From NCBI GenBank assembly GCA_022711595.1, contig JAKLET010000023.1, positions 1-64,000 on the forward strand: a stretch of DNA of 64,000 nt, written 5' to 3'. This DNA comes from Deltaproteobacteria bacterium (lineage in GTDB: Bacteria > Desulfobacterota > Syntrophorhabdia > Syntrophorhabdales > Syntrophorhabdaceae). The notes below the pieces were generated by a model. That model saw nothing but the letters and a program-made list of their open reading frames with translations, did not search any database and was not told where the DNA came from. Every line of letters starts with the position of its first letter. The first letter of the stretch is position 1. The position numbers and the translations under genes were made by a program. Shown here piece by piece: positions 12,310-48,148 of this stretch.

Positions 12310-13128
12310 TTAGAGGTACTCCCTGCGCATCTCTTCTATCATCTCCGAGGTCAGTTTTTCCTGTTTTCTCAGGTCGGCGAATCGGTCCAGGAGGTCGTTT
12401 ACGGTGAGGAACTGCTTTTCCTTTCCCGTGATCTCCTCGATGACCTTCCCTTTGTTCATGAGGATCGTCCGGGTGCCCAGCTCCAGGGCCTGCTGCATGC
12501 TGTGAGTGACCATGACCGCTGTCAGATTATAGCGGGAGATGAACTTTTCCGTGAGTGCCACTACCTGGGAGGCCGACTTGGGGTCAAGTGCGGCGGTGTG
12601 TTCATCGAGTAGCAGCACTTTCGGTTCGTTCATGACGGCCATGAGAAGGGTCAATGCCTGTCTCTGGCCGCCCGATAAGGTCCCTATGGTGTTGTCGAGC
12701 CTGTCTTCGAGCTGCATCTCGAGCATCCTCACCTCTTCGCGGTACCCTGCGAGGCGATCCGAGCTCAGGCTGAAAATGGGGTATCTTGGTTTTCCTCTCA
12801 GGGAGGCAAGGTGAAGGTTTTCGGCTATGGTCATCTGGGGAGCAGTGCCTGTGAAGGGGTTCTGAAAGACCCTGGAAATGACCTGCGCCCGTTGAAAATC
12901 AGGCTTTTTTGCCATGTCCTTGCCGCCTATGGTGATCGTACCGCGGTCGGGAAGGAACGTGCCGGCGATCGCGTTGAGAAGGGTCGATTTACCGGAGCCG
13001 TTGGTCCCGATGATGGTCAGGAACTCACCCTCGGCAATATCGAGGTCGATCCCCCGAAGCGCATAGACCTCATTGATGGTACCGGCGTTGAATGTTTTAT
13101 GAAAGCCGGATATGCCGATCATCGTCAT
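12310..13128 (-). CDS. ABC transporter ATP-binding protein (TrpZ/COG1101-like)
   Basis: A 272-residue ATPase: Walker A GTNGSGKST, signature LSGGQRQALTLLMAV, Walker B VLLLDEHTAALDPK and switch His VTHSMQQAL. DEH in place of DEP in Walker B is typical of this subfamily, which serves COG4120 permeases and COG2984 binding proteins. Its start overlaps the end of the fused permease gene by 4 nt, so the three minus-strand genes from 17168 down form one operon. The pair should make a complete importer, given that binding domains are fused to the permease. Confidence 0.9.
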   Translation of the reverse strand: MTMIGISGFHKTFNAGTINEVYALRGIDLDIAEGEFLTIIGTNGSGKSTLLNAIAGTFLPDRGTITIGGKDMAKKPDFQRAQVISRVFQNPFTGTAPQMTIAENLHLASLRGKPRYPIFSLSSDRLAGYREEVRMLEMQLEDRLDNTIGTLSGGQRQALTLLMAVMNEPKVLLLDEHTAALDPKSASQVVALTEKFISRYNLTAVMVTHSMQQALELGTRTILMNKGKVIEEITGKEKQFLTVNDLLDRFADLRKQEKLTSEMIEEMRREYL

Positions 13129-15947
13129 TTCACCACCTTTACAGCTTTTTTGATAAGGTCATTTGATATTGTGATGCCGTACTCCTTCGCAAGAAAGAGG
13201 TTGACCGTCAGCTGTTCCGGGACATAGGAAACGATCGGTATACCGGAGGGTTTCTCTCCCCTGATGACCCGTATCGCCAGGTCCGCTGTTTTAAGCCCGA
13301 CGTCGTAATAATCCGCGCCAAGGCACATAAAGGCGCCGGAGTCGATATCGGCCGGTGTGTTCGTGATGTAAGGGATCTTTTTCTGCCTCAATTTTTGCGC
13401 GATGGAAGGGATGACAGAAGAAACTGTCGTGTCGCCGGAAGTGAAGAAGATATCGGGAGAGCTGCCCAGGACCGACCTTAAGGCCTCGTCTATTTCCTGG
13501 GTGCCGGTTATCTGTACCTCTACAAGCTTAAAACCGTATTTTTTTGCGGCCTCGCGAGTCATCAGCGTACAGATCTCCGAGTTTGCCTCGGCCGGGTTCC
13601 AGATCATGCCGATGATCTTCGCATTCGGAAAGACCCTGCGCATGAGCCTCACCGTCGATTCCACGGGCTGCGGCGTCGCAAGTCCCGTCATGTTCGGGGG
13701 GTGGTCGGTAAAGCTTTTCGCGACACCCGCCTTGATGGGATCGGTCACTGTCCCGAAAACGTGGGGGATCTTTTTATTGTTGTTCACCGTTACCTGGAGC
13801 GATACCGTGGAGATGGTGACGATGTAATCGTAGTTCTTGCTCACTATATCCTGCGCCATTGACTGGGCGGTTGAAAAATCGCCGTGGGCAAGTTTCTGGT
13901 CAATGGTGATGTTCTCTTTTTCAAGGATGCCGCTCTGTTTCAGTCTGTCGATGACTCCCCTGGCACTGACATCGAGAACGACGCTGTCGGTGAACTGGAA
14001 AAGGGCGAGCCGTTTGACCGGTCCGGCAGGTTTGCCTTCCGCAGGGCCTCCGTCCCTTTTCTTTTTGTTCCCTTTTTCGTCGACGATCACCGTTGCCTCA
14101 TCGATGAGATCCCGGGGTATTGTCAAACCCAGTTCTTTGGCGACCTTGAGATTGACACCCAGCACTGTTTCCTTGTATCGCTCAAAGGGGATCGAAGCCG
14201 GATCCTCTCCTTTCAGAATGCGGTCTGCAAGATTGGCGGCCTGCCTGCCACTGGTTTCGTAAGTGTATCCGAAGACTGCGAGGGCGCCGCCTTCCGGATG
14301 GTCAACATCATTGTAAATGATCGGGACCTTTTTACTTCGGGCCGCCTTGACGACGGACTCGAAGGCCGAGTAGACGATGTTGTCGGTGGGCAGGACGAAG
14401 GCGTTGATGTTCTTATGGACAAGAGACGCGGCAACCTGATGTACCTCCGACGAACCTGCGATGTTGCCGCCGACGAAGGTGACTTCCGGGTGGTTCTTCA
14501 GGGCTTTCTTGAGATTGTTGACATTCTCCTCGGAATTTGCCTGGGAAGGGTCCCAGATAACGCCTATCCTGAGGTGTCCGGGCAGGATCTTCCTGACGAT
14601 CTCCATCGTCTTGTCCATGGGTACCGCGCCGTAGACACCCGTCACATTCGGCAGGTGGTCCGTGTCAGACTTGCCGGCTCCTATGATAAAGGGGTTTGCC
14701 ACGGTGGCGAAGACGACAGGGCGGTCTTTTATCTTGTTGACTGACACCTGAGTGCAGGCCGTGGAGATCGGTACGACGATATCCACCTTCTCCCGAAGGA
14801 ACTTATCGGCAATGGTGTTTACCGTTGCAAGGTCGCCGTTTGCATTTTCCACAAGAAAGGTTGCGTTCTCACCCTCCACATAGCCAAGACGTTTCATCTC
14901 GGCAAGGAAGGCGTCCCGGGTGATGCTGAGTATGGGGTTGTCGCTCACCTGGAAGACGCCGATTCTGACCTTCTTTTGCGGTATGATGCCTGAAAAGTTC
15001 CCATATTTCATACCGGCGAATATGCCTATGATGGCAACAACAGCCATCGCTGCGGCAAAGAGGTGCTTTTTCTTTAACTTGCCGGCGCCCTTTCCGATCC
15101 TGGCCGTGATGACAAGGGTGATGAGAACGAAGATCGCTGTCAGGAGCTTTAAGTCGATCGGGTTCATACCGGCATAAAGAGCGATGGCGATCATGAACCG
15201 GAAAATTACCGAACCTGCGATCGCGCTCCCGATCCAAACATAGATGGAATGTTTCTTGAGGATCGATTCTCCGATGATGACAGCGGCGAGGCCTGTCACA
15301 ACGGTCCCAATACCCATTCCGATATCGGAAAAGCCCTGATACTGTGCTACGAGGCTGCCGGAGATACCCACGAGACCGTTGGCGAAGGCCACGCCCAGGA
15401 TCTTGACACGGTCCACGTTGATCCCGGCCGCCCGGGCCATGACGGGATTATTGCCGCTTGCCCTCATTGAGAGGCCGAAGTCGGTTTTGAAGAAGAAGGA
15501 TACCGCGAACCAGGAAGCGGCCACGATGAAGGTGAGACAAATCGCTATCCAGGGCTCGCGGGGTGCCCCGGGGTTCACCCTGTCAAGGAGCGTGAAGAAC
15601 TCGGGCGCCTCGAGCAGCGGTATGTTGGAACGGCCCATAATGTGGAGGTTGATGGAATAAAGTCCCGTCATGACCAGGATGCCCGCCAGGAGGCTGTTGA
15701 CGTTAAGGCGGGTGTTGATGAGCGCTGTTATGCTTCCTGCCGCCGAACAGGCAATGAAAGAGGCCGCCACGGCCAGGAGAGGATGGGTGCCGCTCACGAC
15801 GAGGACGGAAGTGACAGCGGCGCCCGTTGTGAAGGTCCCGTCAACGGTGATATCGGGAAAATCATGGATGCGGAAGGTGATGTAGATGCCTATGGCGACG
15901 AAGGCGTAAAGGAAGCCGAGGTTGAGCGCGCCTACCCAGAGCTCCAT
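13125..15947 (-). CDS. Fusion: COG4120-type ABC permease with two tandem substrate-binding domains
   Basis: A 940-residue protein that joins parts normally made separately. Residues 1 to about 300 form a permease with roughly eight helices (start MELWVGALNLGFLYAFVAIG), and a further helix (LFAAAMAVVAIIGIFAG) leads outward. Then come two ABC_sub_bind (COG2984) domains, about 328-640 and 655-940, each with its own VxxVI.WxPxxANSE-like core (GVIWDPSQANSEEN; GMIWNPAEANSEI). A Lys/Gly-rich linker separates them. Tethered binding domains usually raise capture efficiency. Ligands of this family include aromatic amino acids; the ligand here is unknown. It starts 3 nt after the STAS gene's stop. Confidence 0.9.
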   Translation of the reverse strand: MELWVGALNLGFLYAFVAIGIYITFRIHDFPDITVDGTFTTGAAVTSVLVVSGTHPLLAVAASFIACSAAGSITALINTRLNVNSLLAGILVMTGLYSINLHIMGRSNIPLLEAPEFFTLLDRVNPGAPREPWIAICLTFIVAASWFAVSFFFKTDFGLSMRASGNNPVMARAAGINVDRVKILGVAFANGLVGISGSLVAQYQGFSDIGMGIGTVVTGLAAVIIGESILKKHSIYVWIGSAIAGSVIFRFMIAIALYAGMNPIDLKLLTAIFVLITLVITARIGKGAGKLKKKHLFAAAMAVVAIIGIFAGMKYGNFSGIIPQKKVRIGVFQVSDNPILSITRDAFLAEMKRLGYVEGENATFLVENANGDLATVNTIADKFLREKVDIVVPISTACTQVSVNKIKDRPVVFATVANPFIIGAGKSDTDHLPNVTGVYGAVPMDKTMEIVRKILPGHLRIGVIWDPSQANSEENVNNLKKALKNHPEVTFVGGNIAGSSEVHQVAASLVHKNINAFVLPTDNIVYSAFESVVKAARSKKVPIIYNDVDHPEGGALAVFGYTYETSGRQAANLADRILKGEDPASIPFERYKETVLGVNLKVAKELGLTIPRDLIDEATVIVDEKGNKKKRDGGPAEGKPAGPVKRLALFQFTDSVVLDVSARGVIDRLKQSGILEKENITIDQKLAHGDFSTAQSMAQDIVSKNYDYIVTISTVSLQVTVNNNKKIPHVFGTVTDPIKAGVAKSFTDHPPNMTGLATPQPVESTVRLMRRVFPNAKIIGMIWNPAEANSEICTLMTREAAKKYGFKLVEVQITGTQEIDEALRSVLGSSPDIFFTSGDTTVSSVIPSIAQKLRQKKIPYITNTPADIDSGAFMCLGADYYDVGLKTADLAIRVIRGEKPSGIPIVSYVPEQLTVNLFLAKEYGITISNDLIKKAVKVVK

Positions 15948-19396: not shown

Positions 19397-20203
19397 ATGG
19401 AGGAAACAAAGATCAGGAGTACGGTCCGGGAGGCGTACGGGGCGATAGCCGAAGGAAAAGCGCAGGGAAAGTCGTGCTGCAGCAGCAATTCATGCGAGAC
19501 CGGGGAGTTCGCTCTCTCCATCGGTTATTGTGAAGATGAGCTTAAACTGGTCCCTGACGGGGCCAACCTGGGCCTCAGCTGCGGGAACCCGACGGCCTTT
19601 GCGAAACTCAAGGAAGGAGAGGTCGTCCTCGATCTCGGTTCGGGGGCGGGGTTCGATTGTTTCATAGCGGCCAGAAAGATAGGCTTGGCCGGCACGGTCA
19701 TTGGCGTCGACATGACCCCGGCGATGATCGAGAAGGCACGCCTGAACGCGGCAAAGGGTTCTTTTTCAAACGTGGAGTTCCGCCTTGGCGAGATCGAGAA
19801 CCTGCCCGTTGCCGACAACTGCGTGGATGTGGTCATAAGCAATTGTGTGATCAATCTTTCCACGGATAAGGCGCGGGTCTTCAGGGAGATACACAGGGTG
19901 CTCAAACCCGGGGGCAGGATCTCGGTGTCCGATATGGCCCTCCTGAGGCAGCTGCCTGAGAGTATCAGGCAAAACGTTGACGCATACGTGGGGTGTGTTG
20001 CCGGAGCGGTCCTGGTCGATGAATACAAAAAACTTGTTGAAGAAGCCGGGTTCGGTTCTGTCGCGGCGACAATATCGGGAGGCTCAGCATGCTGCAGGCC
20101 AGACACACCAGACCCTATGGGCAGGGCCATGCAGGAGGGTGTTGAGGAAGGCACATCGCTTGAGGACTATGTGGTGAGCGTCTATGTGGAAGGCCGCAAG
20201 TAG
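19397..20203 (+). CDS. arsM: Arsenite S-adenosylmethionine methyltransferase
   Basis: 268 residues, of normal ArsM length. SAM-binding motif I reads VLDLGSGAGFDCFIAARKIG; TPAMIEKAR and SNCVINLS follow. Cysteines thought to hold As(III) in the family are present: a CCSSNSCETG cluster near residue 33-40, C in VGCVAGA, and a CC pair in GGSACCRPD. The enzyme methylates As(III) to volatile or less retained species in the cytosol. The start follows GGTGAAGG. An arsR gene follows 24 nt later, and both share the ArsR-type operator upstream. Confidence 0.93.
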   Translation: MEETKIRSTVREAYGAIAEGKAQGKSCCSSNSCETGEFALSIGYCEDELKLVPDGANLGLSCGNPTAFAKLKEGEVVLDLGSGAGFDCFIAARKIGLAGTVIGVDMTPAMIEKARLNAAKGSFSNVEFRLGEIENLPVADNCVDVVISNCVINLSTDKARVFREIHRVLKPGGRISVSDMALLRQLPESIRQNVDAYVGCVAGAVLVDEYKKLVEEAGFGSVAATISGGSACCRPDTPDPMGRAMQEGVEEGTSLEDYVVSVYVEGRK

Positions 20204-20227: not shown

Positions 20228-20608
20228 ATGAACGATCTGGCAAGAACATTCAAGGCTTTGTCCGATGAGACTCGGCTCAGGATAATCAAGCTCCTCGAAA
20301 GCGGGGAATTGTGCGTCTGCGACATCGCCGCAGGCCTCGACATGGTCCAGCCGAAGGTTTCCTTCCATCTTGGCGTCCTGAAGAAGGCGAAGCTGCTCAA
20401 AGACCGCAAGGACGGCAAGTGGATGCACTACCGCATCGATGATTCGGACATGTTCAACAGGCTGCTCCTGCTGTCCGTCCTCGAACGCATACCCGGTGCC
20501 GAAAGCGGCAAGGACAGGGAAAGACTTGATCTGGCCCTGGAGGGCAGGGCCGCCCGGGAGTGCTCCGGCGCTCCGGTGTGCTGCCCCTCCGCATCCGAGA
20601 CAAGATAA
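20228..20608 (+). CDS. arsR: ArsR-family metalloid-responsive repressor
   Basis: A 126-residue winged-helix protein. It starts MNDLARTFKALSDETRLRII and carries the classic As(III)-sensing motif ELCVCDIA in helix alpha-3, then VSFHLGVLKKAKLLKDRKDG (recognition helix and wing). The tail is long, ending with a CCPSASE segment that might add thiol ligands. It should repress the arsM promoter through the palindrome at 19204-19229 and release it on binding arsenite. Confidence 0.92.
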   Translation: MNDLARTFKALSDETRLRIIKLLESGELCVCDIAAGLDMVQPKVSFHLGVLKKAKLLKDRKDGKWMHYRIDDSDMFNRLLLLSVLERIPGAESGKDRERLDLALEGRAARECSGAPVCCPSASETR

Positions 20609-20732
20609 AATGAGTCATAGCGCTCACCGCTGCGGCTGGATATCTTGCCGATCGGCTGGTATACTGATTACAGGTCAGGACGGATTGAAAGCGGCCCTGC
20701 CGGGCTGGTTATAACGATAAGGAGAATGCGTT

Positions 20733-21080
20733 ATGTCCATTTTTAAAGTGACGGGATGAGTTACCTGAGTTGATCCCAACGCGCCGACAGTTAGTCGGCG
20801 TACACTCAGGTTTGTTGACGGAACACAGGTTGCACTCAGTAATCTCCATGAGATAATGGCGGAGCTTTATTCCGTCGGCAAGGAGGCCAACAGGAAGACC
20901 GTGGAGGAGATCATCGCCGGGTTGGAAGCCATGGGCAATTATATATCCGATTCAGAGGTTGCTCGAAGAGAATACAGGAATGTCCTGTTAAAGGAATATG
21001 AGGAATTTATTGAGATACACGACAGGGAAAAAAAAGACAGGATACCCGCGAGTGGTCCCGGGGGAAGAGAGGCGTCATGA
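20733..21080 (+). CDS. Probable selenoprotein with a UxxU motif (two in-frame TGA codons)
   Basis: An ATG at 20733 has an ideal ribosome site (AAGGAG, 8 nt away). The frame reads MSIFKVTG, TGA, Val-Thr, TGA, VDPNAPTVSRRTLRFVDGTQ, then on to a TGA at 21078-21080: 115 residues if both inner TGA codons (20757-20759, 20766-20768) are selenocysteine. UxxU mimics a CxxC redox pair. A two-part stem-loop directly after the second TGA fits a bacterial SECIS. An ATG at 20856 could start a 74-residue version, but it has no ribosome site and would waste a clearly protein-like stretch before it. Third gene of the ars operon. I do not recognise a named family. Confidence 0.72.
20764..20810 (+). promoter_or_regulatory. 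Candidate bacterial SECIS element
   Basis: The outer stem CCTGAGT (20764-20770) pairs with ACTCAGG (20804-20810) and holds the second TGA at its base. The inner stem CGCCGAC (20782-20788) pairs with GTCGGCG (20794-20800). The apical loop is AGTTA. The loop begins 20 nt after the second TGA and 29 nt after the first, inside the range known for bacterial SECIS, and has a G at loop position 2. Confidence 0.68.
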
Positions 21081-21095
21081 CCGGCAGGATCGTTA

Positions 21096-21707
21096 TTAAT
21101 TTCGTTTCTTTTTCAACTGGTTAAGGGCATCTATAATATCGCTGCCCCCGGTGTATTTACTTGTCTTGCCGTTGATCTCGATCACGCATGTGGGGGTTGC
21201 CTCAATTTTGTCTTCTTTAAGACAACGAGACATGATCTCAAAGGTTGGTTTGGGATCGAAGGGTTTCAGGGCTATATTTTTCTCCTTCAGCAGCGCTTCC
21301 AGTTTCTCAGCACTGTCCAATCTCTGTTTTGCAGCGTCCATGAGGAGTCTGCGTACCGTGAGGGCGTGACCGAGGTCCTTCTTCTCATTTATAGCGTAAA
21401 GGAAATGCCGGACATAGAGAGAGGAGAACCGGTAAAACGGTGTGTCGTTAAAAGAGAGTTCAATGATCTTGTCCCTGACGAGTTCCTTGATAACCGGCTC
21501 AAGGTCAGGCGCCATGTCCCTGCAGGGAGGGCAGAAATAATCTGCGTACAACCGTACCTTCACCTTGCCTTCACCGAAGGACGGAAGAAATACATCAGCG
21601 GCTGAACCGGCGGCGGGTATGCTGAAAAATAGTGCCAGAACGGTAAGGAGCGTGATGACCTTTGCGGCGGAGCGTTTCCGTATTATTCCAATTGTTCTTT
21701 TCGTCAT
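21096..21707 (-). CDS. Exported thioredoxin-fold oxidoreductase (DsbA-like)
   Basis: 203 residues. A signal anchor (KVITLLTVLALFFSIPAAGS) is followed by a thioredoxin fold with YFCPPCRDMAP (active-site CPPC) and a late cis-Pro segment IEATPTCVIEI. The helical insert between them is typical of DsbA/DsbG. It should exchange disulfides in the periplasm. Its start overlaps the VKOR-like gene's stop by 4 nt; VKOR proteins reoxidise DsbA, so the two form a disulfide-making pair. Last gene of the minus-strand ArsR-controlled operon, ending 15 nt from the convergent selenoprotein gene. Confidence 0.85.
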   Translation of the reverse strand: MTKRTIGIIRKRSAAKVITLLTVLALFFSIPAAGSAADVFLPSFGEGKVKVRLYADYFCPPCRDMAPDLEPVIKELVRDKIIELSFNDTPFYRFSSLYVRHFLYAINEKKDLGHALTVRRLLMDAAKQRLDSAEKLEALLKEKNIALKPFDPKPTFEIMSRCLKEDKIEATPTCVIEINGKTSKYTGGSDIIDALNQLKKKRN

Positions 21708-22249
21708 GTGAACTTCCTATGATCTGTAAAAAGGTTTTGAGGGGAAAGGGTGTGCTGGCTGTAAGAGTAAGAGGGCGTAAGGGAGCCCTTGAAGAAGATG
21801 GAGAAGAGGATAAGCGACAGCGCCATGGAGATGATACAGAGCGCTTTGCGGTCCCGCTTGAAGTTCAGGAAGAAGAGGATGAAGACGACGGCCGCGAAGG
21901 CAAGGCAATAAGGGCAGTAGGTGTTGTGCCATACCTGGAAGCCGATAAGGTAGAACTCGATCCCAACGCCCGCGGAAATGAGTATGATGAGCAGCGTGTC
22001 CCTTTTCAGTATGCTCAGGAGAACAAGGCACGCCATGTAGGCAATACCGACGTACTCGAGGTTTATCCCGAAGATGTCGCCCTTCAGATACGAGCAGGAG
22101 CCCCCGCAGATGCTGTAGTATATCTCAAGGCCGACGGCAAGACAGGCGAGGAAGATGTTGATGATGTACCTGCGGTGCCGTGTCCGGCCTGAAGTTCGAT
22201 GCAGGACGTCTTCTTCCCGTGGACCATCCATTTCTGTGGTGTTTCCCAT
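21704..22249 (-). CDS. VKOR-family membrane protein
   Basis: 181 residues from the ATG at 22249; the frame upstream is Arg/His-rich and overlaps the lipoprotein gene, so I reject the longer start. After a polar N-terminus come four to five hydrophobic helices with the vitamin K epoxide reductase marks: YYSICGGSCSYLKGDIFGI (loop cysteines) and NTYCPYCLAF (active-site CPYC by the quinone). VKOR homologs oxidise DsbA and pass electrons to quinones. The gene order VKOR then DsbA-like with overlapping ends supports this role. Confidence 0.85.
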   Translation of the reverse strand: MGNTTEMDGPREEDVLHRTSGRTRHRRYIINIFLACLAVGLEIYYSICGGSCSYLKGDIFGINLEYVGIAYMACLVLLSILKRDTLLIILISAGVGIEFYLIGFQVWHNTYCPYCLAFAAVVFILFFLNFKRDRKALCIISMALSLILFSIFFKGSLTPSYSYSQHTLSPQNLFTDHRKFT

Positions 22250-22262
22250 GGCGCCCCCGGTC

Positions 22263-22400
22263 TTATTTTTGTGTCCCGACGGCCGGTGCCGTGTTCTGTG
22301 AGTATGTCCTCGGTGTGGACGGCGGCACGGGACACGAGGAACAGGCATACAGGGATAAGGCTGTCATGGCAATGATGGTGGAAAAGATTAATCGTTTCAT
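22263..22400 (-). CDS. Small lipoprotein with Cys pair
   Basis: A 45-residue frame. It begins MKRLIFSTIIAMTALSLYAC, giving a lipobox LYAC with Cys20 as the lipidated residue, followed by SSCPVPPSTP and a short polar tail. A GAGGGG ribosome site lies a few nt before the ATG. It sits between the DGC-domain gene and the VKOR-like gene on the same strand. One further cysteine (three residues after the lipidated one) remains free for redox or metal binding. Too short for most gene callers. Confidence 0.65.
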   Translation of the reverse strand: MKRLIFSTIIAMTALSLYACSSCPVPPSTPRTYSQNTAPAVGTQK

Positions 22401-22438: not shown

Positions 22439-22843
22439 TCACAAATTTTCCAGTACGGACTTCATGACAACGGAGGTTTCTTCGGACAGCCTGCTGAAAT
22501 CGTGTGCCTTCTGAACCCCGAGTTCGGTGACGACGAAGTACTGCGACGGCACAATGCCGTATTTCTCGAATGCTTTTTTCGCGCACCCCGTGGGGCATCC
22601 GTCGATAACGACCGTTCTCGCCGCTTTCGCGCTTTCGATAAAGCCTGAAAGGGCCGCACCGATGCCGGCAAGGCAGTAGGCGTTGCCCACCCCTTTTCTG
22701 TCGAGTTCGATCATGATGTTGTTCGATACCTGGCCCGCATTCGACCCGCCCGAACAGGCGACGACAAGCGTGGTGACGCCAGCGCCGCAGCATGTGTCGC
22801 CGGTTTTAGGGCCTGCCTGGCAATTGTTTTGTTGTTCCGACAT
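22439..22843 (-). CDS. DGC-domain putative zinc-binding protein
   Basis: 134 residues. It has LVVACSGGSNAGQVSNN near the start, YCLAGIGAALSG in the middle and the name-giving IDGCPTGCAKKAFEKYG, which fit the DGC family of small proteins with paired cysteines thought to bind zinc. The N-terminal GDTCCGAG adds another Cys pair. In many anaerobes this gene neighbours a COG0701 permease and a mini-thioredoxin, exactly as here, which suggests a shared role in metal or metalloid handling. Ribosome site GGGAGG. Confidence 0.85.
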   Translation of the reverse strand: MSEQQNNCQAGPKTGDTCCGAGVTTLVVACSGGSNAGQVSNNIMIELDRKGVGNAYCLAGIGAALSGFIESAKAARTVVIDGCPTGCAKKAFEKYGIVPSQYFVVTELGVQKAHDFSRLSEETSVVMKSVLENL

Positions 22844-22860: not shown

Positions 22861-23091
22861 CTATAGAAATTTTTTGATCTCTTCAACGGAGAGAACCTTG
22901 CCGACGCTCTTCACCACGCCGTCGACAGCGATGGCCGGGGTCATCATGACGCCATAGTTCATGATATCGTTGATGTTGGTGACCTTCTCGATCTCGAATT
23001 CGACCCCCGCACTTTTCGCTGCCTCTTGAGCATTCTCTGCGAGTTTTACACACTTGGCGCAGCCTGTTCCGAGTATCTGTATCTTTTTCAT
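22861..23091 (-). CDS. Mini-thioredoxin (thioredoxin-like, CAKC motif)
   Basis: 76 residues. The start MKKIQILGTGCAKCVKLAEN holds the CxxC redox motif, and the cis-Pro segment reads VMMTPAIAVDG. This glutaredoxin-sized family is common beside COG0701 permease genes and is cytosolic. It lies 15 nt after the permease gene and before the DGC gene; ribosome site GGAGGTAAGGAA. A reductive or metal-delivery role for the permease is likely but not proven. Confidence 0.9.
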   Translation of the reverse strand: MKKIQILGTGCAKCVKLAENAQEAAKSAGVEFEIEKVTNINDIMNYGVMMTPAIAVDGVVKSVGKVLSVEEIKKFL

Positions 23092-23106: not shown

Positions 23107-24396
23107 TTATTCGACGATCCACCCGTACAGCATACCGGCAATGGTGGAGAGCAATACGACGTAAACTATGAAAACAATAGTTTTTTTCGTACCAAGGATG
23201 CTCCTGATGACGATCATGCTCGGCAGCGAAAGGGCAGGCCCGGCAAGAAGAAGGGAGAGGGCGGGCCCCTGGCCCATGCCGGAGCCAAGAAGCCCCTGAA
23301 CTATGGGGACCTCGGTCAGGGTTGCAAAATACATGAAAGCGCCCACTATTGAGGCAAAAAAATTGGCCAGGAAGCCGTTTCCCCCGACGAGCGCTGATAT
23401 CCACCGCGAAGGGATGATACCGTTGTCTGTCCCCGGCATGCCCAGGAGGAACCCCGCAACGACGACCCCGCCGAGGAGAAGCGGTGCTATCATGAGGGCG
23501 TACATCCACGTTGAGTCGATCCAGCCCTTGGTCTCGTCCGATGAGGTTTTTGTAACCCACACGACCCCGGCTATACCCGCCGAGAAAGCAAGGAGCGGCC
23601 ATTTCGGGAAAAGAAGGCCCAGGGCCAGCACCACAACCCCTGTTATGATGGTGGGGATGGGTTTAGCCTCGAACCACCTGATAATAACATAGCCGAAGAG
23701 GATCCCGAAGAGTCCCGTCACATACCATTTGGCTGCATAAATGGTATGCCATATGCCCGTTTCTTCCATGGGCTTGCCCCAGTTTGCGAAGACGAGGATG
23801 CCGATCATTGAGGCCATGTACACGACGTCCTGCCAGAGCTTCCTCTTCGGTTCTTCCATCGGCATACAGGCCGCCTGCTTGGCGGCCTCTTCCTTTCGGA
23901 AGGTGACCGCCATGAGAAGCCCGATCACGTAGGCGAACAGGACCGCGCCGATGGCCCGTGCCAGACCGATCTTCCACCCCAGGACCTTGGCGGACAGAAC
24001 AATGGCGAGGACATTGATGGCAGGTCCAGAGTATAAAAACGACGTGGCGGGACCCACACCTGCCCCCATCCGGTATATGCCGGCGAAAAGGGGCAGAACG
24101 GTGCAGGAACAGACGGCGAGCACGGTACCCGAAACGGACGCCACCGAATAGGAGAGGCACTTGTTCGCCGCTGGACCGAGATATTTCATGACCGATGCCT
24201 GCGAGACGAAGACCGAGATCGCTCCGGCGATGAAAAAGGCCGGAACGAGGCAGAGCAGCACATGTTTCTGAGCATAGTCCTGGAGCATGTAGAAGGATTC
24301 CAGGATGGCCTTCTGCACCGATGTGTTGTCAAAGGGGATGAAGTAGGCCGCGGCAAAAACCCCGAGGAGTATGAGGAATTTATATATGTCTTTCAT
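23107..24396 (-). CDS. COG0701/DUF318 permease (ArsP-like)
   Basis: A 429-residue membrane protein with about ten helices in two repeated halves. Characteristic stretches are YFIPFDNTSVQKAI, VFVSQASVMKYLG and TVLPLFAGIYRMGAGVGPAT in the first half and GALMYFATLTEVPIVQGLL-like FMYFATLTEVPIVQGLLGSG in the second. The CSCTVLP motif resembles the cysteine pair of ArsP exporters that pump trivalent organoarsenicals; other members export metal ions. ArsR control and a methylating enzyme nearby make methylarsenite a sensible substrate. Ribosome site AAGGAG. Confidence 0.85.
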   Translation of the reverse strand: MKDIYKFLILLGVFAAAYFIPFDNTSVQKAILESFYMLQDYAQKHVLLCLVPAFFIAGAISVFVSQASVMKYLGPAANKCLSYSVASVSGTVLAVCSCTVLPLFAGIYRMGAGVGPATSFLYSGPAINVLAIVLSAKVLGWKIGLARAIGAVLFAYVIGLLMAVTFRKEEAAKQAACMPMEEPKRKLWQDVVYMASMIGILVFANWGKPMEETGIWHTIYAAKWYVTGLFGILFGYVIIRWFEAKPIPTIITGVVVLALGLLFPKWPLLAFSAGIAGVVWVTKTSSDETKGWIDSTWMYALMIAPLLLGGVVVAGFLLGMPGTDNGIIPSRWISALVGGNGFLANFFASIVGAFMYFATLTEVPIVQGLLGSGMGQGPALSLLLAGPALSLPSMIVIRSILGTKKTIVFIVYVVLLSTIAGMLYGWIVE

Positions 24397-25325: not shown

Positions 25326-26420
25326 ATGGCTTCAGAACATATAGGTAAGAAACTTTCCTTTCTTGACAGGTTCCTGACATTGTGGATCTTCCTTGCAATG
25401 TTCATCGGGGTCGGCTGGGGGTACCTCTTCCCCGGGATCGTCGGTTTCTGGAACCAGTTCCAGTCAGGGACCACAAACGTACCCATCGCCATAGGCCTTA
25501 TCCTCATGATGTACCCGCCACTTGCCAAGGTGAAGTACGAAGAGTTAGGAGAGGTGTTCAGGAACTACCGCGTGCTCATCCTTTCGCTCATCCAGAACTG
25601 GGTGGTGGGCCCCATCCTGATGTTCATTCTGGCCATTGTGTTTCTTAGAGGTTACCCCGAGTACATGGTCGGACTGATCATGATCGGCCTTGCACGGTGC
25701 ATCGCCATGGTGATCGTCTGGAACGACCTCGCGAAGGGCGACACCGAGTATTGTGCAGGACTCGTTGCTTTCAATTCCATCTTCCAGGTCCTCTTTTTCT
25801 CTGTCTACGCCTATGTGTTCATCACCGTCCTGCCGCCCGTGCTGGGGTTGAAGGGAGTGGCGGTCGACATCACCATCGGCCAGATAGCTGAGAGCGTCTT
25901 CATATACCTCGGCATCCCTTTTATTGCAGGGGTGATCACGCGCTTTGTTCTTATTAAGGTAAAAGACAAGGCATGGTATCATGAGAGGTTCATACCGAAG
26001 ATCAGCCCCATTACCCTCATTGCGCTGCTTTTTACAATACTGGTCATGTTCTCCCTCAAGGGGGAATATATCGTAAAGATACCCCTCGATGTGGTGCGGA
26101 TCGCAGTGCCACTTCTCATTTATTTCGTTTTCATGTTCATCGTCTCTTTTTACATGAGCGCGAAGGCGAAGGCGCATTACGGACAGGCTGCAACCCTATC
26201 TTTTACGGCCGCGTCAAATAACTTCGAGCTGGCCATTGCGGTGGCCGTCGCTGTTTTCGGCATCAATTCCGGACAGGCGTTCGCCGCGGTAATAGGCCCT
26301 CTCGTGGAGGTACCCGTACTTATCAACCTTGTCCACCTCTCACTCTGGATAAGAAAAAAATACTTCCCCTATGCCGTTGAAACACCTTCCGGTATATGTT
26401 ACATGACATGCAAGGAATGA
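25326..26420 (+). CDS. acr3: ACR3-family arsenite efflux permease
   Basis: 364 residues with ten hydrophobic helices, the usual size. Family segments include [37 protein letters not shown] (with the conserved Cys of helix 4 needed for arsenite transport) and [18 protein letters not shown]. The protein expels As(III) in exchange for protons. The tail ends in [10 protein letters not shown]. It is cotranscribed with the arsR gene before it. Confidence 0.95.
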
Positions 26421-46818: not shown

Positions 46819-47037
46819 TCAGTCCTTTGTGATGGTGATGCGGAACCCGGCCCCTTCCGGTTCAACGCCTTTCAGAGCCCATCCCTGGGCGATCGCGGCA
46901 CGTGAGACGTTTTCTTTCGAGGTGACCGTGTCCACAAGAATGACGATCTCGCCCTTTCCCATCTTTTTGATCTCGTTCATTGTTAGAAGAACAGGCTGCG
47001 GGCATGAAAGCCCGGTTGCATCGACGATTGTACCCAT
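46819..47037 (-). CDS. TusA/SirA-family sulfur-carrier protein
   Basis: 72 residues. MGTIVDATGLSCPQPVLLTM contains the family's CPxP motif with its sulfur-carrying Cys. Ribosome site AAGGAGG. The gene follows yedE by 16 nt. In selenium-using bacteria this TusA-like plus YedE pair is linked with selenium metabolism, where the protein may carry selenium or sulfur to its users. That fits a genome with a selenoprotein. Confidence 0.9.
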   Translation of the reverse strand: MGTIVDATGLSCPQPVLLTMNEIKKMGKGEIVILVDTVTSKENVSRAAIAQGWALKGVEPEGAGFRITITKD

Positions 47038-47053
47038 TTAAAATCCTCCTTGT

Positions 47054-48148
47054 TCAGGCGACTTGTTTTCTCATGGTGAACCCGATGAAGAGGCAGACCA
47101 GAAGACCCGTGATCACCGCCGGGATCCCGTAAGGCCCAACACCTGCAGGGCTGCTTGCCAGGCCGAAGTTGTGCGATATACCCGCCCCGACGATCATCCC
47201 CAGGACGAAGACCGCCGCGTCACCGTCGCCTTCCCCCGAGAGAAAGAGCTGCCGTCCCGGGCAGCCGCCGGCCAGGCAGAAGGCCAACCCAGCAAGTACC
47301 ATGCCGCCGAAGTTCCACAGGCCCATTGTATGCGCAACGGGTTGTTTTGCAAAGCCGGGATTGAACTGTCCCAACACCAGGTTTGTCAGGAACGCGAACA
47401 CTACAAGAGCGATAAAACCGGAAAGGAGATGGGTCTGCCTGAAAAGGACGAGGTCCCTGATCGCCCCCATGGTGCAGAACCTGCTTCTCTGCGCCAGAAA
47501 ACCCACGATAAGGCCGATTACAAGGGAAATGAAAAGAGGAGCGTGCATGGAACCAGGGCCTTTCAGGCTGTAGAACAGGACCCCGCTCCTGTTCTGGCCC
47601 TCCACCTGCGGGAAGACGAGCGTGAGTGCGAGAAATCCAAGCATTATCAAGGGAAGGAGCCATCCCACCGAAGTGTGGGTAGTCCGGGAGCGACCCAGGT
47701 TGAAGCCGCCCTTGAGAAAGAACGTGCCTACCCATATTCCCCCGATGAGCCCGAGCAATCCCAATATGGCGTTCCAGTCACCGCCGGCCAAACGGAGCGC
47801 TGCCCTCCACGGGCAGCCCAGAAAAACCAACCCACCGATCATGGCGAAGGCGCCCAGAACGAAACGGACAATGGGGGCCGAGCCTGCCCGCGCCCGGAAC
47901 TCTTTAAAGGCGTAAGCAGCTGCCAGCGAGCCGATGACGAAGCCAATGATCTCGGGCCGCATATATTGGACGATGTCAGCCCGGTGAAGCCCCAGGGATC
48001 CCGCCATATCCCTCTCGAAGCAGGCCACGCAGACGCCCATATTCGCCGGATTCCCCAGTTTTTGCAGAAGCTGGGCCAATATCCCTATGAAGGCTCCCAC
48101 TGCGATGATTCCCCACCGTGTCGCGAAGATCTGCGTAAATTTTGACAT
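47054..48148 (-). CDS. yedE: YeeE/YedE-family transporter, selenium-linked type
   Basis: 364 residues with nine or ten helices. Cys-bearing motifs include NMGVCVACFERDMAGSL, FLGCPWRAALRLAGGD, RSRFCTMGAIRDLVLF and LAGGCPGRQLFLSGEGDGDA, the last typical of the YedE subfamily tied to selenium metabolism. Relatives such as YeeE import thiosulfate; this branch is thought to handle selenium compounds. Cotranscribed with the TusA-like gene. Ribosome site AAGGAAGGG. Confidence 0.9.
   Translation of the reverse strand: MSKFTQIFATRWGIIAVGAFIGILAQLLQKLGNPANMGVCVACFERDMAGSLGLHRADIVQYMRPEIIGFVIGSLAAAYAFKEFRARAGSAPIVRFVLGAFAMIGGLVFLGCPWRAALRLAGGDWNAILGLLGLIGGIWVGTFFLKGGFNLGRSRTTHTSVGWLLPLIMLGFLALTLVFPQVEGQNRSGVLFYSLKGPGSMHAPLFISLVIGLIVGFLAQRSRFCTMGAIRDLVLFRQTHLLSGFIALVVFAFLTNLVLGQFNPGFAKQPVAHTMGLWNFGGMVLAGLAFCLAGGCPGRQLFLSGEGDGDAAVFVLGMIVGAGISHNFGLASSPAGVGPYGIPAVITGLLVCLFIGFTMRKQVA

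Follow-up and report, generated by a model that had tools for sequence, protein, structure and literature searches.

A predicted double selenoprotein in an arsenic-resistance gene neighbourhood of a deltaproteobacterial genome

Two in-frame UGA codons near the start of a small gene in an arsenic-resistance region are almost certainly both recoded as selenocysteine (Sec), a conclusion drawn from sequence comparison without mass spectrometry or 75Se evidence. That the gene encodes a true double selenoprotein follows from the conservation of the UGAs, the coding signal before and between them, the covariation of a hairpin downstream and the presence of selA, selB, selC and selD in the genome. The best explanation overall, and one that we consider probable, is that this double selenoprotein acts as a selenol-headed carrier in arsenic resistance. 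The features discussed below are collected in Table 1; the window is the whole stretch of 64,000 nucleotides that was analysed.

Table 1. Positions in the window of the two-Sec gene, its signals and its neighbours
Feature	Position	Strand	Details
arsM, arsenite methyltransferase	19397-20203	+	NF008823, 334 bits
arsR-type regulator	20228-20608	+	NF033788
Shine-Dalgarno AAGGAG	20719-20724	+	8 nt 5' of ATG 20733
Two-Sec selenoprotein gene	20733-21080	+	115 residues, Sec at 9 and 12, stop TGA 21078-21080
UGA1 (Sec9)	20757-20759	+	register kept in 20/20 close relatives
UGA2 (Sec12)	20766-20768	+	register kept in 20/20 close relatives
Lower stem, 20763-20770 with 20804-20811	20763-20811	+	folds here, not conserved in the family
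SECIS apical hairpin	20781-20801	+	CCGAC 20784-20788, loop AGUUA 20789-20793, GUCGG 20794-20798
Unnamed 'NYIP' body, codons 22-104: beta-hairpin and three helices	20796-21044	+	common to ArsE-thioredoxin fusions
DsbA-like thioredoxin-fold protein, convergent with the two-Sec gene	21096-21707	-	PF13462
VKOR-like membrane protein	21704-22348	-	NF011480, weak, below cut-off
DGC-domain protein	22439-22843	-	PF08859
Stand-alone MTH895/ArsE-type thioredoxin-like protein (GCAKC)	22861-23091	-	TIGR00412, 105 bits
ArsP-type permease	23107-24396	-	PF03773, 243 bits
acr3 arsenite efflux pump	25326-26420	+	TIGR00832, 455 bits

Reading frame, UGA codons and SECIS hairpin

Across the 64-kb window, both strands included, the arrangement TGA-N6-TGA with an ATG no more than 30 codons before it and 90 or more open codons after it occurs once, at 20733-21080. 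With TGA read as U, the frame from ATG 20733 begins MSIFKVTGUVTUVDPNAPTVSRRTLRF..., so that GUVTU forms the Sec-containing head of the protein. The initial annotation had placed two in-frame TGA codons at 20757 and 20766 in a frame that remains coding to 21080, and both the coordinates and the homologues agree with it. The good ribosome site that it described is also there, as AAGGAG with an 8-nt spacer, and a Shine-Dalgarno-like motif 5' of the upstream ATG recurs in relatives. As it had further anticipated, the plain ORF list holds only a 74-residue piece starting at 20856. It could be argued, in keeping with what such a standard list gives, that this shorter ORF alone is translated from ATG 20856 and that the upstream frame is decayed or open by chance. 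We give this reading hardly any credence. The stretch before 20856 lacks a Shine-Dalgarno, the SECIS hairpin covaries, and 20 relatives preserve both UGAs, the N-terminal residues and the upstream ATG preceded by its Shine-Dalgarno, while accumulating synonymous substitutions.

Close relatives of the gene (n = 20; 57-82% identity in the best segment) were obtained from a scan of genome contigs and belong to MAGs of deltaproteobacterial, proteobacterial or Syntrophorhabdales/Syntrophobacterales type. Their alignment has an in-register TGA at both positions in all 20. Codons 2-8 vary at four first, one second and seven third positions, while the variation in codons 10-11, between the UGAs, is confined to third positions (0/0/2), and most changes around the UGAs either are synonymous or substitute a similar residue. 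When 395 genomes of the phylum were searched with a profile, the family turned up in 36 genomes from 26 genera, and 47 of the 48 members compared, from several families of the phylum, carry two in-frame UGAs, with a spacing that varies (UxxU, UxxxU, UxxxxU). With TGA read as U, the heads seen are GUVTU, GUITU, GUTTU, GUVGU, GUIDU, GUVDU, GUTKU, GUKDGU and GUGDGU. The lone exception among the 48 (locus L050, G319:C75) has TTA at the first UGA (GLITU) and keeps the second UGA and the hairpin; it is possibly a one-Sec variant or an assembly error. Two further loci (L049 and L059, G224) have a variant head in which U is followed by CU (GUVGGCU, GUAGGCU), with several copies in one genome alongside CC/CPC paralogues. 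The cysteine paralogues (L059, L067-L071, L135) bear a CC or CPC head at the equivalent place in the chain, with other spacing, and no exact CxxC in place of UxxU was found among the homologues. The expectation that homologues would show UxxU or CxxC at this place was thus met in that Sec is kept across both TGA positions, but not as regards an exact CxxC, for which the cysteine paralogues offer CC or CPC.

The RNA from 20757 to 20815 folds at -23.7 kcal/mol (z = -4.36), and none of 200 shuffles folds as well. The loop AGUUA has its G at the second position and lies 20 nt past UGA2 and 29 nt past UGA1. Bacterial SECIS (bSECIS) elements are constrained to a loop of 3-9 nt, a G at loop position one or two and a distance of 16-37 nt from the UGA (PMC13188914). 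The apical hairpin of the window gene satisfies these constraints, and with its covariation the check for a bacterial SECIS proposed at the outset is passed. In the window gene and 19 close relatives (20/20), codons 18, 20 and 22 are invariably CCG, GTT and CGG and serine 21 has only AGY codons, the synonymous sites of the apical hairpin being frozen at this range. Because the core is nearly invariant, RNAalifold returned for the close relatives the apical hairpin only, without covariation, and a wider set was needed. In a set of 36 different hairpins, base pairing holds in 84.5% of cells, against 12.7-46.4% for slid partners, and 13 double-change cells are present versus a shuffled mean of 5.0, a count that none of 500 shuffles reached. 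A lower stem as a feature of the family was rejected, as four of its seven scored pairs are broken in some relatives. Of the SECIS-like double stem initially described, the apical hairpin, its loop G and the 20-nt distance are therefore real and conserved, whereas the lower stem is not conserved. An Rfam search of the region gave no match. We propose that this single hairpin would, from its two distances, direct the decoding of both UGAs as selenocysteine.

Selenium machinery and the arsenic-resistance neighbourhood

The genome of the window encodes SelA, SelB, SelD and a tRNA-Sec (selC) with anticodon UCA, so that the four selenocysteine genes sought are all present. The presence of selB was dropped as a discriminating test because 353 of the 395 sampled genomes have it over the cut-off. 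The selD gene of this genome (G000:C23:186546-187457, L082) has an in-frame TGA inside. The window also encodes a YedE-type putative selenium transporter (47054-48148; TIGR04112, 485 bits) next to a TusA-like partner, the two genes together covering 46819-48148 on the minus strand. Of the yedE/tusA pair that had been noted 26 kb away, yedE is well supported, but the partner, a short YedF/TusA-type protein, falls below the cut-off; the pair indicates selenium use, but nothing links it to the two-Sec gene.

The two-Sec gene lies approximately 125 nt 3' of arsR and on the same strand as arsM and arsR, with acr3 4.3 kb further on. Comparable neighbours occur at approximately 13 of the 20 close-relative loci and at many distant loci, and at relatives' loci they comprise ArsR, ArsP permease, DsbA/VKOR, ArsM, DsbD, thioredoxin and ArsC-like genes. 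Across the phylum sample, acr3 is found within 8 kb of 20 of the 36 Sec-form genes, where approximately 0.2 would be expected, and is on the same strand in 19 of these 20 cases and in all 15 within 1.1 kb. No acr3 is present within 8 kb of the other 16, some of which are close to contig ends. The association is not built in, because the family search used no arsenic gene. We consider it strongly supported that the two-Sec family belongs to an arsenic-resistance context, and the arsenic link first inferred from the position after arsM and arsR is strengthened by the proximity and co-orientation of acr3 across the phylum. Conceivably, the protein instead acts on reduced selenium, as its carrier or in its detoxification, and the link to ars genes stems from a shared metalloid stress, as the yedE-type transporter gene in the window could suggest. 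However, that gene is 26 kb off and the phylum-wide adjacency is to acr3, which leaves selenium handling improbable.

Two other observations concern these regions. A small protein that is unnamed apart from a PF04060 Fe-S motif at its C-terminus recurs in such islands, at L088:1315-1836, L100:4766-5290 and elsewhere. In the window, 13125-15947 on the minus strand encodes a 940-residue fusion that, judged by eye, has an ABC permease-like region and two substrate-binding-like regions.

A helical body inferred to carry different heads

In the AlphaFold model, residues 1-14, including both Sec, have a pLDDT below 50, and the remainder forms a beta-hairpin and three helices; the model is of moderate quality (pLDDT 75.6) and was built on a shallow alignment. 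Pfam and NCBIfam (release 20) models matched the Sec protein with no family at E <= 1 and gave no convincing match to the cysteine forms or the fused NYIP domain; the TIGR00412 / PF13192 thioredoxin domain was likewise without a match in the window Sec protein. Searching the PDB by sequence with the Sec profile gave chance-level matches only, and searching it by fold with Foldseek gave nothing at E <= 0.001. The family was matched neither in a plasmid collection (tblastn) nor in viral contigs.

A profile of the Sec, cysteine and fused forms has matches in 108 of the 395 genomes, and many of the extra matches are proteins of approximately 170 residues in which the NYIP body is followed by a thioredoxin domain. 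The thioredoxin part carries GCxxC in all 20 fusions inspected, and every one scanned is matched by TIGR00412 (ArsE-type) or PF13192. As an independent test, the Sec alignment was compared profile to profile with the fused N-terminal domain, which gave an hhalign probability of 97.4 (E 1.2e-11). Ahead of the NY motif, 19 of the 20 fusions have no cysteine; the remaining one (L139) has two, which precede an alternative start, so that its N-terminus is probably over-called. The islands of the fusions hold Acr3, ArsP, ArsR, DGC and DsbD genes. NYIP-ArsE thioredoxin fusions were seen at L088, L091, L100 and L131-L150, and occur widely across the phylum in ars/permease islands. We infer a single body with three exchangeable heads: a UxxU tail, a CC/CPC tail and a fused ArsE-type thioredoxin.

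Homeodomains are the top structural neighbours of the model (Z 5.7), and it might be imagined that the three-helix body makes contact with DNA or with a regulator while the selenols sense arsenic or the redox state. Yet small helical folds commonly reach a Z in this range, the homologous body occurs in fusions with thioredoxins, and ArsR regulators are already there, so that a role as sensor or regulator appears very unlikely. The homeodomain likeness itself (VIA-align) was set aside as not distinguishable from common helical arrangements.

Possible roles and relation to known systems

How a selenol-headed carrier might work can only be sketched. A flexible N-terminal tail would present the UxxU selenol pair on the small beta-hairpin/three-helix body, the pair would bind As(III)/MAs(III) or reduce an intermediate, either an arsenic or a disulfide one, and a neighbouring thioredoxin-like protein (ArsE-type, DsbA-like) would recharge it, while the body may dock on a partner in the efflux machinery (Acr3 or the ArsP permease). 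That the body is a docking module and the head performs the thiol/selenol chemistry is inferred, with no data on chemistry or protein partners. The initial proposal of a selenium-dependent thiol chemistry in arsenic handling is accordingly supported for selenocysteine and for the arsenic context, and remains an inference for the redox chemistry.

It is possible that the protein is simply an As(III)/methylarsenite chaperone whose two selenols bind the metalloid and hand it over to Acr3/ArsP without redox turnover. The co-orientation with acr3 and the placement of the Sec pair in a disordered tail of the model would suit such a function, as would the absence of any other cysteine from the window protein and most close relatives, which makes the two Sec the only strong ligands. 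However, two residues provide only two of the three ligands that As(III) usually takes, and the thioredoxin in related fusions points to electron or thiol exchange, so that we regard a pure chaperone as rather doubtful. A somewhat better, though still tentative, case can be made for a reductant of pentavalent arsenic species or of disulfide-trapped partners (e.g. in the ArsM cycle) that draws electrons from ArsE-type, DsbA-like or thioredoxin proteins, given that UxxU looks like a redox pair, that a GCxxC thioredoxin serves as the alternative head and that DsbA/VKOR/DsbD/thioredoxin genes are neighbours. Against it, UxxU lacks a surrounding catalytic fold and sits in the unstructured tail of the model.

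Several described families resemble the two-Sec protein in having more than one Sec and a metalloid or metal context, namely the NF047649 methyltransferase/UXPK-star, the NF041536/NF041537 ArsM fusions, NF045648 MbdU and the NF041115 UxxU metal-binding protein (PMC13188914). The window protein differs from these families in that its UxxU forms a tail attached to an unnamed helical body and in that it has no methyltransferase domain. With the MTH895/ArsE family (TIGR00412) fused to the NYIP domain it has the helical body and the ars-island context in common, but it is devoid of a thioredoxin domain, and in place of GCxxC it has an N-terminal UxxU as the putative active pair. Its possible role, in which As(III) is handed to an efflux pump, recalls ArsD-type arsenite metallochaperones. 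ArsD uses cysteines and partners ArsA, and the Sec protein has no ArsD match. By domain and motif, no visible match exists among the 119 families tabulated in a 2026 review (PMC13188914), although an earlier mention elsewhere is not excluded.

Given the conservation of the UGAs in dozens of related bacteria and the usual place beside acr3, the two-Sec family would appear to be a selenium-based component of arsenic detoxification that has not been described. A more specific scenario, which we put forward only tentatively, is that of an undescribed arsenic-resistance selenoprotein family built as a helical adaptor with interchangeable heads, the selenol form of which passes electrons or trivalent arsenic directly to Acr3/ArsP. 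The few multi-Sec bacterial proteins known so far gain a further family, whose genes standard annotation misses. GUxxU with the NYIP body offers a search motif for more of them in MAGs, where gene callers would leave approximately 75 residues. Selenocysteine is here tied to the arsenite efflux gene acr3 and not to methylation alone, and the exchangeable heads pose a sharp question, that is, on which partner the adaptor docks and what a selenol does there that a thioredoxin does not.
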